Below, piece by piece: positions 1-22,003 of a stretch of 64,000 bases of DNA. Source of the DNA: Oscillospiraceae bacterium (GTDB lineage: Bacteria; Bacillota; Clostridia; Oscillospirales; Oscillospiraceae); assembly GCA_015068125.1 (NCBI GenBank), contig SVLD01000005.1:1-64000 (forward strand), written 5' to 3'. The translations under genes were made by a program, and so were the position numbers. How positions within the stretch are numbered: the first letter of the stretch is position 1; the number at the start of each line of letters is the position of its first letter. A model generated the notes under the pieces. That model was not told where the DNA came from. It searched no databases and saw only the letters and a program-made list of their open reading frames with translations.

Positions 1-500
1 TGCTGGGGGTTAAGGATCTCGGGCGCGCTCCAATGGCATGGAGCATACGACCCGGTTTCCGTGGAGACCTGAAGCTTGTGCGACGAAGTTGAGAACTCCG
101 ATTGGCGGAAGCCTCTTCGCGTACGAATCAGGTAAGAACCTGCAAAGTGGTGCACAGAATCGTGTGCTATGTGCAGAGTAGCCTGCCTTGAGTGAACATG
201 CGGGGAAAAGAGTTTACGCGGATGGCAATTTGTGGCCACAATTGCTTCCGAACAATAGCTCTTGGAAACCATGCTTGCAAAAGAGGCTAAGATTTGGTTT
301 GTTCTGCCGTGGAAATCACCTAGGCTGTCGTAACTGGGCAGACAGGGGATTACAGTACGGACTAAGTGGCAATCGGGTACGCAAGTGGGTAACGCTTGCG
401 CGGATGGATCAAATGGAAACAGCCTGCACGGCAACGGCAGGTTCTGTCCGGGGAAATCCAACCCGACCTAAGCCGTAAGATTTATCCTGTCTGCCGCCGT
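1..500 (+). ncRNA. ole: OLE RNA, 3' portion (5' end outside window)
   Basis: About 500 bases before oapA have no credible gene but many short stems, for example 225-230 with 240-245, 380-385 with 395-400, and 423-427 with 437-441. OLE (ornate, large, extremophilic) RNA is a roughly 600-nt RNA of anaerobic and extremophilic Firmicutes. It lies inside the isoprenoid operon, directly before the gene for its membrane-protein partner OapA and then dxs. That gene order (OapA-like protein, dxs, tlyA, nadK, argR, recN) follows here, which is the main support. The 5' part lies before the window and the 3' boundary is estimated. The 96-codon frame at 188-478 lacks a ribosome site and I treat it as chance. 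I could not run a covariance-model search. Confidence 0.75.
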
Positions 501-531
501 CTTTTTCACAAAATTCAAAGGAGATATTCCT

Positions 532-1119
532 GTGTCTAAATCCGACTCAGCCACACCTGGCAAACAACGAAAGAAAACCGCAATTTGGGTCATTACGATC
601 TTTATCGTAACCATCATCGTTTCCGCCACGATCTCTTTGATTTCCGAGGAAGTCATGGCCGGAAGCGGTACACTGACCGCATTTCTCATTCTGTTTGGAA
701 TCGTTTTGCTGGGTATTCTCTTTGATATTATTGGTGTTGCCGTCACCTCGGCAGACGAAACGCCCCTCCATGCTATGGCAGCCCGTAAGGTTTCCGGTGC
801 CCGGGAAGCGATTCGTTTGCTTCGTAAAGCGGATAAGGTTAGTTCTATCTGCAATGATGTGGTAGGTGACATTTGCGGCGTCGTTTCCGGTTCTGCGGCG
901 GCCAGCATTGCGGTGCAGCTCCTGCAGACCTTTGAATTTTCCTGGGAGCGCATGGCTTCCCTGATAATGTCCGCCATGGTAGCAGGCGTTACCGTTGGCG
1001 GCAAGGCCATCGGCAAGACTTTTGCAGTGAATTCCTCCACTACCATTGTTCACTGCGTGGGAAAAGTGATCTTCTGGTTGGGTAGACTGCCGGCATTTTT
1101 CCGCAGAAAGAAAACGTAA
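532..1119 (+). CDS. oapA: OLE-associated membrane protein OapA
   Basis: This 195-residue protein starts at GTG 532 behind AAGGAG. It has two strong N-terminal membrane segments (about residues 18-40 and 47-70), a charged middle with a conserved-looking ADKV...CNDVVGD stretch (about 102-115), and two further hydrophobic segments near the C-terminus, ending in a basic tail. Known OapA proteins are small multi-pass membrane proteins that bind OLE RNA and place it at the membrane, where the complex affects tolerance to cold, alcohols and metal stress. The assignment rests on size, topology and its place between the structured RNA and dxs. Its TAA stop overlaps the first dxs ATG, which suggests translational coupling. 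Confidence 0.75.
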   Translation: MSKSDSATPGKQRKKTAIWVITIFIVTIIVSATISLISEEVMAGSGTLTAFLILFGIVLLGILFDIIGVAVTSADETPLHAMAARKVSGAREAIRLLRKADKVSSICNDVVGDICGVVSGSAAASIAVQLLQTFEFSWERMASLIMSAMVAGVTVGGKAIGKTFAVNSSTTIVHCVGKVIFWLGRLPAFFRRKKT

Positions 1120-3008
1120 TGTTAGGTTGTGTCGCAAGGGTGAGTTTACTTGAAAGAATCAACGGCCATGATGATTTGGCCGCCCTGACAGATGAGCAGC
1201 GGATCGCGCTATGTGACGAGATCCGCTCTTTTCTCGTGGAGCGTGTAGCCAAGACAGGCGGTCACCTGGCCTCCAATCTGGGCGTTGTGGAGCTTACGGT
1301 TGCTGTAGAAACTGTTTTTGATACAAATAACGACCGTCTGGTGTTTGATGTAGGTCATCAGTCTTATGTCCATAAGATGCTGACCGGCCGCCAGGCGGAT
1401 TTTGACCGTCTGCGCCAGTTTGGCGGTATCGCCGGATTCCCCAAGCCCAGTGAAAGCCGCAGCGATTCCTTTGTGGCAGGCCACGCCTCCAGTGCGGTGT
1501 CCATTGCCCTGGGTATGGCCAGAGCCAGAACCCTGCTGAAGGACGATTATCATGTTGTCGCACTCATGGGTGACGGCGCTGCCACCGGCGGCATGGTCTA
1601 TGAGGGCCTGAACGATGCCGCGGAAAGCGGCGAGCCCATGGTGGTCATCCTGAACGATAACGAAATGTCCATAGACAAAAATGTAGGCGGAATGGCCAAG
1701 CACCTTTCCCGCCTCCGCACCAAGGAAAGTTACCTGGATATGAAGGACCGTTACCGCAGTGTATTGACCAAGGTGCCCGGCGGCAGAGGTCTGTACCATT
1801 TCTCTCAGCGCGTGAAGGAACGCGTCAAGCAAAGCCTGCTTCGCACTACCATCTTTGAAAACATGGGCATGACATACCTGGGGCCCGTGGACGGACATGA
1901 CCTGAAAGAGCTGATCCGTATTTTCCGGGTAGCGAAAGATATGCGCAAGCCCGTGCTTGTCCATGTGTTGACCCAGAAGGGCAGAGGTTACGCCCCTGCA
2001 GAGCAGCAGCCCTCCATTTATCACGGCGTGGGCAGATTCGATCCCATTTCCGGTCAGATCCCCTGTAAAAACGCCGATACCTTCTCCGACGCTTTCGGCC
2101 AGACGATGATGGCTCTGGCAAAGGAGGATCCCCGGGTTTGCGCCATTACTGCGGCTATGCCCGGCGGTACGGGCTTGCTTAGCTTTAAGGAGGCCTTCCC
2201 GGATCGCCTTTTCGATGTGGGTATTGCGGAGGAACACGCGGTTTCCATGGCCGGCGGCCTTGCCAAGCAGGGCATGGTGCCGGTGGTGGCACTGTATTCC
2301 ACCTTCCTGCAGCGTGCCTTTGACCAGATCATCCAGGATGTTGCTCTGCTGGGACTTCATGTAGTCTTTGCTGTGGATCGAGCCGGCTTGGTTGGCGAAG
2401 ACGGAGAAACGCACCATGGCGTTTTTGATGTGGGCTTTCTGCGGCAGATCCCTGGGATGACAGTGCTGTGTCCCTCCTCTTGCCAGGAGCTTTCCGATAT
2501 GCTGTTGTGGGCGGTTCGGGAATGCAGAGGGCCTGTGGCCATTCGCTATCCCCGGGGCGGCAACAGATGCTATGCCGCTTCCGACTGGACAGATATGGCG
2601 CTGAACAGCGCCGTAAAATGCCACAAGCAGGGTGATCATGTAACGATCATTACCTATGGCACTATGCTGGATAATGCTCTTACCGCTGCGGAAAGTTTGG
2701 CAAAAGACGGCATATCTGCATCGGTGCTGCGCCTTATGAGTATCGCACCGTTGCCGGTAAATCAGCTTATACCCTATATCCGGACAAAGCATGTTTTGAT
2801 TCTGGAGGAAACTGCAGCCCAGTCTTCTGTCTGCCATGAGCTGTCCGGGAAAATTCTTGCCGAAAAACCGAATTGCCGTGTCCAAAGTCTGACTTTGGGA
2901 AACCAGTTTGTACCCCACGGCGCGCTGAAAGACCTATACAGCCATTATGAACTGGACGGCGAAGGCATCGCCGAGTTTGTCCGAAAGGAGCATTTCTATG
3001 AAAATTAA
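1119..3008 (+). CDS. dxs: 1-deoxy-D-xylulose-5-phosphate synthase
   Basis: DXS condenses pyruvate and glyceraldehyde 3-phosphate, with thiamine diphosphate, in the first step of the MEP isoprenoid pathway. The 629-residue protein has the expected order: a conserved VGHQ near residue 79, the thiamine/magnesium motif GDGAATGG near 150 with its partner N in NDNEMS near 177, the pyrimidine-domain catalytic Glu in AEEHAV near 370, and the C-terminal transketolase domain with RYPRG. ATG 1119 overlaps the oapA stop. GTG 1140 gives a start closer to family members (VSLLERIN) and is a real alternative. The 3' end overlaps tlyA by 11 bases, so the genes are co-transcribed. Confidence 0.95.
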   Translation: MLGCVARVSLLERINGHDDLAALTDEQRIALCDEIRSFLVERVAKTGGHLASNLGVVELTVAVETVFDTNNDRLVFDVGHQSYVHKMLTGRQADFDRLRQFGGIAGFPKPSESRSDSFVAGHASSAVSIALGMARARTLLKDDYHVVALMGDGAATGGMVYEGLNDAAESGEPMVVILNDNEMSIDKNVGGMAKHLSRLRTKESYLDMKDRYRSVLTKVPGGRGLYHFSQRVKERVKQSLLRTTIFENMGMTYLGPVDGHDLKELIRIFRVAKDMRKPVLVHVLTQKGRGYAPAEQQPSIYHGVGRFDPISGQIPCKNADTFSDAFGQTMMALAKEDPRVCAITAAMPGGTGLLSFKEAFPDRLFDVGIAEEHAVSMAGGLAKQGMVPVVALYSTFLQRAFDQIIQDVALLGLHVVFAVDRAGLVGEDGETHHGVFDVGFLRQIPGMTVLCPSSCQELSDMLLWAVRECRGPVAIRYPRGGNRCYAASDWTDMALNSAVKCHKQGDHVTIITYGTMLDNALTAAESLAKDGISASVLRLMSIAPLPVNQLIPYIRTKHVLILEETAAQSSVCHELSGKILAEKPNCRVQSLTLGNQFVPHGALKDLYSHYELDGEGIAEFVRKEHFYEN

Positions 3009-4681: not shown

Positions 4682-5134
4682 ATGAAAAGTCAAAGACAAG
4701 CCAAGATCATGGAGATCATTACAAACCGTAATGTGGAGACCCAGGAGCAGCTTCTGAAGGAACTGAAGGACGCTGGTTTCCGCAGCACCCAGGCTACCAT
4801 TTCCCGGGATATCAAAGAACTTCGCATCGTTAAGGAACTGACCAGCTTCGGTACATACCGTTATGCTGCCAGCTCCGATGAAATGAACGGCACCTTCTCC
4901 GGCCGTCTGAATACCATCTTCCGGGAGTGCATCACCAATTTTGACTATGCCCAGAACATGGTGGTCATCCATACCCTGCCTGGCCTTGCCTCCGCTGCCG
5001 CCTCTGCCATCGATTCCATGAATATGAGCGTGGTTGTGGGCACCCTGGCCGGCGACGATACTGTCTTCATCGTCATGCGAGATACCAACGCCGCCGCCGC
5101 TTTCTGCGGCGAGATTAAGCATCTATTAACTTAA
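4682..5134 (+). CDS. argR: Arginine repressor ArgR/AhrC
   Basis: This 150-residue protein has an N-terminal winged helix (about residues 1-70; TQATISRDIKEL is the recognition region) and a C-terminal oligomerisation and arginine-binding domain. The latter carries the Ala/Asp-rich GTLAGDDTVF stretch near residues 118-127, where DD is the arginine-contact pair of the family. ArgR represses arginine biosynthesis genes and activates catabolic ones as a hexamer. It lies ten bases after nadK in the same operon. Firmicutes commonly keep argR directly before recN, as here. Confidence 0.95.
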   Translation: MKSQRQAKIMEIITNRNVETQEQLLKELKDAGFRSTQATISRDIKELRIVKELTSFGTYRYAASSDEMNGTFSGRLNTIFRECITNFDYAQNMVVIHTLPGLASAAASAIDSMNMSVVVGTLAGDDTVFIVMRDTNAAAAFCGEIKHLLT

Positions 5135-5153: not shown

Positions 5154-6803
5154 ATGCTGAGCCTTTTGCATATTGAGAATATTGCCGTCATTGAGTGCTC
5201 CGACATTTCTTTCGATCGGGGCTTCAATGTCCTTACCGGCGAAACCGGTGCAGGTAAGTCCATCGTTATCGATGCCATCAGCGCCATTCTGGGCGAGCGT
5301 GCTTACCGGGATATGATCCGTACCGGATCGGCGAAAGCCTCTGTCCGGGCGGTATTTACCGATGTTCCAGAGCACCCCTGGTTCCAGGAAAACGATGTTC
5401 CTTACGATTCTGAAACCATCATCCAGCGGGAAATCTACCTGGACGGCAAAAACGTCTGCCGGGTCAACGGAACCCTGGTCACCGTATCCATTTTGCGCAA
5501 GCTTGGCATTCAGCTGATCAACATCCACGGCCAGCACGACTCCGCCAGCTTGTTTGATGAGGCGAACCATCTGACCTTCCTGGATGATTTTGCTGAGAAC
5601 GACGCCATTCGGGCAGATTATGCCGAAAAATATGCCATCGTCGCCGATCTCAACAAGCAGATCAACAGCCTGACCATGGACGAAAGCGAAAAGCTGCGCC
5701 GCATGGAAACCCTGAAATACCAGATCGCGGAAATTGAAAAGGCGGAATTGGAAGCAGGGGAGGATGACATTCTGGAGGAGCGCCGTAAACTCCTCCAAAA
5801 CGCCGAAAAGCTTTCCGATGGCATCCATGCCGCCGTGGAATGTCTTTATGGCGGTGATGATACCGACGGCGCAGCCAGCCTGCTTTCCCAGGCAGAGCGT
5901 GAGCTTGCCCGTCTATCCCGATTTACGGATGCTTATTCCCAGCTTCACGAGCGCGTGACAGACCTGATGTACCACGTCCAGGATGCTGCAGAGGAGATCC
6001 GTGCCGCCCGGGACGATCTTTCCTATTCTGCTGATGAGCTGGAGCAAATCGAAGCCCGGCTGGACATCATCCATCGCCTTCGCAAAAAATACGGCGCCAC
6101 CTGCGAAGATATCCTTTCCTACCTGGAAAGCGCAAAGCAGGAGCTGGATGAGATCGAATTTGCCGATGATCACCTGGAGCGGCTCAAAATCAAACTCACC
6201 AAGGCAGAAAAAGATGCCTGGTCTGCAGCCCAAGCCCTTCGGGAAAGCCGAAAGACTGCCGCAGCTGTTCTTTCCGACCGCATCCTGACAGAACTGGCCC
6301 AGCTGGATATGCCCAAGGTGCAGTTCTCCTGCGAATTTACCGAGCTGCCATTGTCTTCCAACGGCGCTGACGCTGTGGCATTCTATCTGTCCGCCAATGC
6401 CGGCGAAGCCCTGAAACCCTTGAGTAAGGTCGCATCCGGCGGTGAGCTTGCCCGGATCATGCTGGCCATGAAAAACGTCCTTGCGCAGCAGGACCAAGTA
6501 CCTACGCTGATCTTCGATGAAGTGGATACCGGTGTGTCCGGTCGCGCTGCCCAAAAGGTTGCAGAGAAGCTACGGAGCGTGGCTGCCAATAAGCAAGTCC
6601 TTTGCGTCACCCATCTGCCCCAGATCGCAGCCATGGGCGATACCCATATGCTTATCGCCAAATCCGAACGTGACGGCCGTACTTATACGACGGTCACACC
6701 CCTTGACCGCGAGGGTCGCGCAAGGGAACTTGCCCGAATTATCGGCGGCGCAAACATCACGGAAATCACACTGAAAAGCGCTGAGGAAATGCTTTCCCGT
6801 TAA
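5154..6803 (+). CDS. recN: DNA repair protein RecN
   Basis: RecN is an SMC-like ATPase that gathers and tethers DNA ends early in double-strand break repair. The 549-residue protein has Walker A GETGAGKS at residues 29-36, a long coiled-coil middle (about 155-370), the ABC signature SGGELARIMLA, and Walker B LIFDEVDTGVSGR near 450, followed by the D-loop and the THLPQIA switch His. Length and motif order are normal. It is the last gene of the operon; a promoter and T-box leader for the next operon begin directly after its stop. Confidence 0.97.
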   Translation: MLSLLHIENIAVIECSDISFDRGFNVLTGETGAGKSIVIDAISAILGERAYRDMIRTGSAKASVRAVFTDVPEHPWFQENDVPYDSETIIQREIYLDGKNVCRVNGTLVTVSILRKLGIQLINIHGQHDSASLFDEANHLTFLDDFAENDAIRADYAEKYAIVADLNKQINSLTMDESEKLRRMETLKYQIAEIEKAELEAGEDDILEERRKLLQNAEKLSDGIHAAVECLYGGDDTDGAASLLSQAERELARLSRFTDAYSQLHERVTDLMYHVQDAAEEIRAARDDLSYSADELEQIEARLDIIHRLRKKYGATCEDILSYLESAKQELDEIEFADDHLERLKIKLTKAEKDAWSAAQALRESRKTAAAVLSDRILTELAQLDMPKVQFSCEFTELPLSSNGADAVAFYLSANAGEALKPLSKVASGGELARIMLAMKNVLAQQDQVPTLIFDEVDTGVSGRAAQKVAEKLRSVAANKQVLCVTHLPQIAAMGDTHMLIAKSERDGRTYTTVTPLDREGRARELARIIGGANITEITLKSAEEMLSR

Positions 6804-6839: not shown

Positions 6840-7097
6840 CATAACACAAAGATGGGAACAAGTAAGCGATCCCTTTTCCGCCAGAGAGCTGCCGGTTGGT
6901 GCAAGGCAGTGGGAAAAACCGCTGAAATACCTCCCGGAGTGGCCTTTCCGAAATCGCAGTAGGGAAGGACGGATTCCCCCGAAACAGGGAAAAGCGTTGT
7001 TAGACGCTGTGAGGCCAGTGCCGTGAGGCAATGGCGAACCAGAGGTGGTACCGCGTAATTTACGCCCTCTGTCCTTGTAGGACAGGGGGCGTTTCTT
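6840..7097 (+). promoter_or_regulatory. T-box riboswitch, tyrosine-specific
   Basis: This leader senses uncharged tRNA and allows read-through when charging is low. It contains the AG-bulge/distal-loop region (about 6880-6910), a specifier region reading GAAATACCTCC with the Tyr codon TAC at 6928-6930, and the canonical T-box AGAGGTGGTACCGCG at 7041-7055 that pairs with the tRNA acceptor end. An intrinsic terminator follows. The Tyr specifier agrees with tyrS two genes downstream. An M28 peptidase gene lies between leader and tyrS, so it shares the control. Confidence 0.92.
7063..7097 (+). terminator. T-box attenuator terminator
   Basis: A GC-rich stem (CGCCCTCTGTCC pairing with GGACAGGGGGCG around a short loop) is followed by a T-rich run. 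It overlaps the T-box, so the antiterminator and terminator are mutually exclusive. Confidence 0.9.
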
Positions 7098-7123: not shown

Positions 7124-8071
7124 ATGCTTAACAGTCCATTGGATATTTTGGATCAGTTTCCCATTCGAAAAAGCCGCAAACAAAAGTGTGCATTTGCCGC
7201 GGATGTCCAGCGCTATTGCACCGCACAGGGCTATCCCTGCAGTATAGAAAAGGGAACACTGGGCAGCCGCAATATCGTTATCGGCAACCCGGATCGGGCG
7301 CAATACCTGGTCACCGCCCACTATGATACCCCTGCCAGCATCGGCTTGCCCAATATCATCACGCCGAAGAATCTGTGGTTTTACTTGCTGTGGCAAATTT
7401 TCTTGGTTGGAATCCTGTTGGTCCTGGCCTTCGTTACCGGCGCTGGTATGACGTTGCTTACAGGAGATGCCAGCTTTGCTTTTATCACTAGCTATCTTGT
7501 ATATTTCCTTGTCCTGGTTCTTATGCTCTTCGGTCCTGCCAACCGGCATAACGCCAACGACAACACCTCCGGCGTAGTCACTGTACTGGAGATGGCTCGT
7601 ACAATGCCGGAAAACCTCCGCAGCAAAGTTTGCTTTGTTCTTTTTGATTTGGAGGAAGCCGGACTGATCGGATCTGCGTCCTTTTATAAAACCCATAAGA
7701 AGACCGCTCAAAATCAGCTTGTTTTGAACTTGGACTGTGTTGGGGATGGCGATGAGATCGTTCTGTTCCCAACCAAAAAGCTGAAAAAAGATTCCAAATC
7801 CATGTCTGCGCTGGACACCATCAGCGGTGTTTACGGCGGCAAATCCATTTCCTTGCACCATAAAGGTTTTTCCGTTTATCCATCCGATCAGCGGAATTTC
7901 CCCAAGGGTGTAGGTATAGCCGCATTTCGCCGGAATAAAGTGCTGGGACTGTATTGCAGCCGGATCCACACCTGGCGGGACCGGATTTTGGAGCAAACCA
8001 ATGTCAATCTTCTCAGAGCGGCACTGACCACTCTGATTTCAAATTATAACTTACATCAGGAGGAAACATGA
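7124..8071 (+). CDS. M28-family metallopeptidase with two membrane segments
   Basis: The 315-residue protein has an M28 di-zinc aminopeptidase-like core: AHYD near residue 64, the bridging Asp in NDNTSG near 148, DLEEAG with the catalytic/metal acidic residues near 180, LNLDCVGDGD, and a late His in RIHTWRD near 287. Two hydrophobic helices (about 83-106 and 117-137) interrupt the core, so the enzyme is probably membrane-bound. I chose ATG 7124 because GAGAGGAG precedes it; the longer frame from 7031 would run through the T-box terminator. It is co-transcribed with tyrS (ATGA-type overlap). The substrate is unknown; a role in recycling peptides for tyrosine is inference from shared T-box control. 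Confidence 0.8.
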   Translation: MLNSPLDILDQFPIRKSRKQKCAFAADVQRYCTAQGYPCSIEKGTLGSRNIVIGNPDRAQYLVTAHYDTPASIGLPNIITPKNLWFYLLWQIFLVGILLVLAFVTGAGMTLLTGDASFAFITSYLVYFLVLVLMLFGPANRHNANDNTSGVVTVLEMARTMPENLRSKVCFVLFDLEEAGLIGSASFYKTHKKTAQNQLVLNLDCVGDGDEIVLFPTKKLKKDSKSMSALDTISGVYGGKSISLHHKGFSVYPSDQRNFPKGVGIAAFRRNKVLGLYCSRIHTWRDRILEQTNVNLLRAALTTLISNYNLHQEET

Positions 8072-21757: not shown

Positions 21758-21985
21758 TCGTTAATTGCCGTGATGGAGAGGTTTTGCTGAACCCTTTTTT
21801 CAGAGAGTGCGTGGCTGGTGTGAACGCACAGAAGGTCGGTGGAATGTCGCTCCGGAGCTTGCTTCCTGAAAGAAAGTAGGGAAGTGCGGGTAAGCCCGTT
21901 ACAGCTTTTTGAGTGCCCGAAAGGGAATTCAGGTGGTACCGCGGATTTTTTCGCCCTGAGTCTTAGGACTTAGGGCGTTTTTTTA
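21758..21985 (+). promoter_or_regulatory. T-box riboswitch, valine-specific
   Basis: The specifier region reads GGAATGTCGCTCCGGAG with the Val codon GTC at 21846-21848. The conserved T-box AGGTGGTACCGCGG is at 21931-21944, followed by a terminator (CGCCCTGAGTC pairing with GACTTAGGGCG around TTAG, then T7). valS follows directly. Under low charging of tRNA-Val the antiterminator should form. Confidence 0.92.
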
Positions 21986-22003
21986 TGAAAAGGAGTGTTT
22001 ATT

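Follow-up and report, generated by a model that had tools for sequence, protein, structure and literature searches.

An ole-oapA locus in a gut Oscillospiraceae genome, and evidence for its repeated loss among close relatives

The stretch of DNA analysed here (the window, 64 kb) opens inside a gene for OLE RNA, which is followed directly by oapA, the gene of its membrane partner. We put the probability at about 85 % that this ole-oapA pair supplies the large RNA of the OLE ribonucleoprotein together with its membrane protein, and that it works in the following way. In the genus of the host, ole would be transcribed from its own sigma-A-type promoter at the RNA's 5' end, and, as far as sequence can tell, transcription probably reads through ole into oapA and dxs. 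Published studies, most of which concern H. halodurans, suggest that the folded RNA would form a dimer anchored at the membrane through OapA. Its kink turn would be occupied by OapC and, in those relatives that keep OapB, its P13 by that protein. The unit would take the place of MpfA-type CNNM-CBS-CorC proteins in adaptation to stress and metal ions, the role in stress again being extrapolated from the published studies. Established here are the identity of the RNA, its conserved structure, the gene order, an OapC-type gene, the co-occurrence with OapA, the anticorrelation with CorC, and a repeated joint loss.

To our knowledge, OLE counts among the largest of the conserved bacterial RNAs that have no known biochemical role. 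It has been studied in Halalkalibacterium halodurans, and its structure was solved for Clostridium acetobutylicum. In the published picture, OLE forms a dimer to which OapA binds at the membrane; OapC sits on a kink turn, OapB on P13 and bS21 on P6, and the RNA is required under stress from cold, ethanol, Mg2+ and carbon sources (PMC12265935, PMC9723947, PMC12286853, PMC10898510, PMC12054373). As OLE has already been reported in 2,822 genomes of Bacillota, uncultured gut clades among them (PMC11332333), finding it here is less surprising than the sequence-only reading of this DNA had implied, and the ole of the window is a further copy of a well-described system. The parts worth following are instead the losses within the genus and the promoter element, and the locus is useful mainly because close relatives have lost ole-oapA cleanly.

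The OLE RNA gene at the contig start

The gene occupies positions 1-516 of the plus strand and matches positions 131-616 of the 616 in the Rfam model RF01071 with 319.6 bits (E 3.6e-90 over 64 kb; gathering score 50). The match is cut at its 5' end, and base 1 of the window is also base 1 of its contig (85,375 bases, of which the window is the first 64 kb), so that the first ~130 nt of ole are absent because the contig starts inside the gene. This 5' fifth, which lies off the contig together with the promoter, includes most of P5 and a portion of the kink turn; P7-P9 and P13 are spanned as in the full-length type, here as in the genus, and the RNA regions for the published contacts are present as far as the contig reaches. 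In a permissive Rfam search of positions 1-1200, the sole match besides OLE was to a snoRNA family and fell well short of that family's gathering score. The likeness to OLE covers sequence and structure over all positions present, with oapA as the following gene, dxs, argR and recN in the same gene series and an OapC-type gene in the genome, and differs from the studied representatives in that the host is a gut MAG and not an extremophile, that the 5' end is off the contig, and that OapB was not found.

The sequence-only reading had named the RNA from synteny and visible stems; its identity now stands on the covariance model and on covariation as well. For the latter, an alignment of 41 OLE sequences was used (the window, 20 loci of genus members, 9 of order members and 11 named records), onto which the Rfam structure was transferred via the cmscan alignment of L063, the closest named relative. 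Both letters were present in L063 for 156 of the 159 consensus pairs, and one loopless pair was dropped, leaving 155 tested. Paired cells amounted to 89.8 % as compared to 75.7 % in shuffles, 109 of the 155 pairs were changed on both sides (78.5 in shuffles), and the covariation score was 0.432 (0.170 in shuffles), with none of 500 shuffles reaching any of these measures. When the partners were slid by 1-3 columns, 38-46 % of the cells still paired, a control which somewhat favours the structure since this was taken from one aligned row (L063). Weak spots of the alignment are helix 13 and helix 18, paired to 65 % and 68 %, respectively, and two pairs of helix 3 are unpaired in 35 of the 41 rows.

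An alternative in which the stretch codes for protein and its structure is incidental deserves almost no credence. It could draw on two open reading frames across ole (3-461 on the minus strand, 153 aa, and 188-478 on the plus strand, 96 aa), and several relatives likewise carry long antisense frames over OLE; however, neither of the two is kept as an open, in-phase frame in any of the 40 aligned relatives, and the covariation over the 41 sequences is strong. The earlier description of about 500 structured, non-coding bases (here 1-516) agrees with these results, as the covariance model matches the region and neither frame across it is conserved; the further 150 upstream bases that the sequence-only reading wanted included in the search lie off the contig. 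We regard it as very improbable, too, that ole has decayed in this lineage with only its 3' four fifths left. It is true that the 5' 130 nt are missing from the contig and were not found elsewhere in the MAG, as a genome search using 812 bases taken from the closest named relative (the upstream gene plus the 5' part of OLE) recovered the copy in the window and otherwise only short hits that look like chance. Against this, the cut coincides exactly with the contig start, 116 of the 130 Rfam pairs that the window could form are standard, and the nearest genome, G022, keeps the full model (1-616) with an OLE 95.3 % identical to that of the window over 510 bases; L063 also carries a complete OLE.

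Contigs end inside ole-oapA in six of the 32 genus genomes with OLE or OapA (the window's own genome, G000, and G004, G005, G012, G017 and G025), as compared to an expectation of 2.6 based on the numbers of contigs and on rounded genome sizes (P 0.04, an observation made post hoc). Since contigs sometimes break inside ole, an absence of OLE from a MAG must be verified at the locus.

One published detail differs. In P6 of H. halodurans OLE, a CCUCC anti-Shine-Dalgarno mimic was reported (PMC12054373). No such mimic was found at the corresponding place (window ~14-61) in any of the 38 readable among the 41 aligned rows, nor in any of the 54 readable among the best 80 of at least 560 OapA loci, two overlapping sets of which H. 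halodurans itself is not a member. This fits the result, reported in the same paper, that constructs with changed Shine-Dalgarno or anti-Shine-Dalgarno letters still bound bS21 (PMC12054373).

Gene order, protein partners and host

Directly after ole, a likely ribosome-binding site read from the sequence (aaaggag, 517-523, plus strand) precedes oapA (532-1119, plus strand), which starts with GTG and encodes an OLE-associated membrane protein A of 195 aa. It is followed by dxs (1119-3008, plus strand; TIGR00204, 669 bits), whose start is more likely the GTG at 1140, as judged by comparison with relatives. The order of ole, an OapA-like membrane protein and dxs proposed from the sequence is thereby borne out. 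Further downstream, and separated from dxs by TlyA-like and NAD-kinase-like genes named by eye, lies the arginine repressor gene argR (4682-5134, plus strand; TIGR01529, 138.7 bits, over the cut-off), and recN (5154-6803, plus strand; TIGR00634, 557 bits) ends the series. T-box leaders over the gathering score were also detected in the window, at 6840-7072 and at 21761-21961, the latter just before an ORF of 884 aa at 21995.

Scanned against Pfam and NCBIfam, the OapA frame passed no curated cut-off and had no match named OapA, its single weak NCBIfam match being unrelated. It weakly resembles the CNNM domain of MpfA-type proteins (23.3 bits, E 5.5e-5, below the cut-off of 28.4; profile comparison E 7e-5, probability 63 %), from which it differs in having neither a CBS nor a CorC domain and in being paired with an RNA. 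CND..GD is invariant in 19 aligned OapA sequences. Of 80 OapA loci fetched from named genomes (the best 80 of at least 560), 20 were scanned, and each of these 20 has an OLE immediately before OapA, two of the OLEs being truncated by the start of their contig. An exception was seen in G037, where a complete OLE (L059, contig C53) precedes a long mfd-like gene, recognised by eye, while OapA-dxs is found on another contig (L207, C30) with ~200 bases upstream and no OLE tail; in this genome OLE and OapA look unlinked. G041 carries two different OapA genes (L208 on C94 and L061 on C41), the one on C94 so close to the contig end that an OLE before it could be unassembled.

The OapC candidate is an L7Ae-like protein (L049, 525-827, minus strand) encoded between rpoC and rpsL, both flanks recognised by eye, and its best solved matches are YbxF (3v7e/4lck, 2.3e-13); the other L7Ae matches in the 60 genomes surveyed below may be of either the YbxF or the YlxQ type. 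As to OapB, infA was considered as a pointer to its gene in the window's genome, and no infA was found there, so that OapB was sought instead with a profile built from small ORFs that neighbour infA in six relatives. This profile finds the OLE-associated protein B 7k9b at 6.5e-14 and detects OapB in 40 of the 60 genomes, including 21 of 22 near-complete OLE carriers as compared to 7 of 11 near-complete non-carriers. In the window's genome (87 % complete) the profile found none, and as infA is missing there too, the absence may reflect incompleteness of the MAG. G018, which has OLE and is 92 % complete, is likewise without an OapB match; of two genus members without OLE, G001 (99 % complete) lacks a match and G035 has one. 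Variant 1 and variant 2 OLE RNAs are reported from the reduced gut genomes of TANB77 and RF39 (PMC11332333), whose hosts resemble the present one in being uncultured gut bacteria with small genomes. In contrast to these variants, P7-P9 and P13 are spanned here, and most near-complete genus members keep OapB (11/13).

The host MAG comprises 1.58 Mb in 40 contigs and is estimated to be 87.4 % complete and 4.2 % contaminated. Among the best 80 of at least 560 OapA loci, the closest records come from MAGs under the label Oscillospiraceae, and the titles of several name animal gut samples; these records include Candidatus Faecousia intestinigallinarum. The OLE of the latter is 84.7 % identical to that of its nearest genus member, which falls inside the range between the 20 genus rows (71-98 %), whereas five outside rows reach 62.6-72.3 %; we therefore infer a Faecousia-like member of the Oscillospiraceae as host. 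This assignment would be wrong if the contig were a contaminant of the MAG, for which the estimate of 4.2 % leaves some room. We consider this improbable, as the contig is 85 kb long, its dxs groups with that of G022 inside the genus (100/99), and OLE occurs in most members of the genus (29/37). The host had also been described as a mesophilic-looking spore former: spore formation is plausible, with two markers in the genome, Spo0A and SpoIVA, whereas a mesophilic life is suggested by the gut samples in the titles of related records.

OLE and CorC proteins across the order

The survey covered 60 genomes including the window's own, 37 from the genus and 23 from the order, each of the latter from another family; 33 of the 60 are near-complete. 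OLE, searched with stricter filters that lose weak matches, was found in 42 genomes (22 of the 33 near-complete) and in 29 of the 37 genus members, of which 32 have OLE or OapA. OapA occurs in 45 of the 60 genomes, and among the near-complete ones in the same 22 of 33 as OLE. CorC_HlyC proteins were matched in 21 of the 60 genomes at E 0.001, 20 of them over the cut-off. Ten of the 26 matching proteins were scanned with Pfam, and nine carry CNNM, CBS and CorC domains; the weak one has CorC only.

All 11 near-complete genomes without OLE carry CorC, versus 4 of the 22 with OLE over the cut-off (5 including a weak match in G038; Fisher p 7e-6; this and the following Fisher tests ignore descent). 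In the order outside the genus, with one near-complete genome per family, CorC is present in 9 of 9 non-carriers versus 0 of 11 carriers over the cut-off (p 6e-6), or 1 of 11 if the weak match is counted (p 1e-4). Within the genus alone, the figures are 2 of 2 non-carriers and 4 of 11 carriers, which is not significant (p 0.19). As an anticorrelation between OLE and MpfA has already been published (PMC11332333) and agrees with ours, the present result is a confirmation in one order and not a discovery.

The pattern might also arise if the OLE unit is present as described but MpfA-type proteins do not replace it, and the anticorrelation follows lineage or lifestyle. We think this unlikely, yet it is the most serious of the alternatives, given the non-significant test within the genus, the 4 of 11 near-complete genus carriers that have CorC as well, and the fact that the CorC of the two OLE-minus members differs in type from that of their sister genomes. 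The test with one genome per family (9/9 versus 0/11, or 1/11) speaks against it, as does a cross-rescue mentioned as unpublished data in PMC12265935. Whether the exporter came first was considered as well: G017 and G010, called as sisters of the OLE-minus members, do carry CorC, but of another type, and an inherited replacing gene is not claimed.

Losses within the genus and the predicted ole promoter

Two genus members, G001 (99 % complete) and G035 (98 %), have dxs but lack both OLE and OapA, and no OLE remnant was found at either dxs up to E 1. In G001, a NUDIX-like gene lies 231 bases before dxs, and a gene alike by eye precedes ole directly in L063 and, with a short ORF between, in G022; both neighbours are thus kept, and ole and oapA are gone from between them. 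In G035, a cysteine-desulfurase-like gene (by eye) stands before dxs, whereas xseA and ispA (as read) stand before ole in its sister G010, which indicates that the upstream side was rearranged. In two dxs trees, G001 groups with the OLE carrier G017 (98/93 and 99/93) and G035 with the OLE carrier G010 (100/93 and 96/87). Forcing G001 and G035 into one clade was rejected (p-AU 0.0015), in a test that was run after the first tree had been seen, on a pair defined by OLE absence, and on ~295 columns of one gene. The first tree was computed without G043, G046, G045, G037, G041, G032 and G007, whose dxs was missing or too short in the fetched stretch, and the second comprised genus members and three outgroups, with G007, G032 and G036 left out. 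Judging from these gene orders and trees, ole and oapA were lost at least twice within the genus, OapA together with OLE both times, and a CorC protein is present both times. Other candidates were not scored as losses: in G008, G028 and G034 dxs was not found either, in G004 and G025 the 3' end of OLE lies at a contig start, and in G005 OapA is cut at a contig start.

In every one of 21 genus loci, a predicted promoter of the form TTGNNN, 16-18, TANNNT extends to the first bases of the OLE model. In the 34 distinct upstream sequences of 35 loci chosen as belonging to the genus or near it, the -10 element reads T(A/G)TGNTANNAT, and (T/A)ATATTC after TTG is nearly fixed. A stricter motif with a -10 element occurs in 17 of the 21 genus loci, each time at ole and nowhere else in their 74 kb, and across 353 kb of further fetched sequence, parts of which overlap, its only occurrences are at ole and at the dxs of G035. 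It is also found once in 400 kb of G011 without its ole, beside a hairpin-like sequence, and a single time in the window, at 7497 within an ORF; a related 13-base pattern was not matched at all in the window when up to 2 mismatches were allowed, the chance expectation being 3 matches. Between ole and oapA, no terminator-like site was listed. The OLE-minus G001 has a recognisable copy of the promoter before dxs (L152; 33-base alignment, 1 of 1000 shuffles as good), and in G035 an ole-like promoter motif is located in front of dxs (L155 and L191). In both genomes this looks like a former ole promoter left before dxs.

Taken together, we would give even odds to a scenario in which separate lineages of one gut genus deleted ole-oapA on at least two occasions, the ole promoter staying behind each time to drive dxs directly in a genome with an MpfA-type protein, and in which the conserved TATATTC by the -35 box marks ole as separately regulated. 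If true, the genus would be a natural experiment on a protein replacing an RNA machine, and the two near-complete, in-place losses offer closely matched genomes for asking what changes without OLE.

ArgR is reported to bind OLE RNA in H. halodurans (PMC10898510), and as argR also belongs to the gene series, an ArgR box in the ole promoter was considered; the conserved TGTATATTCA is without the spacing of ARG boxes, and no such box is claimed. In L025, L063 and further loci of the genus, ole is preceded by the conserved TTG(T/A)ATATTC with an extended -10 element, and farther out, TTG(A/T)ATATTC is found in 14 of 72 upstream sequences, genus members included.
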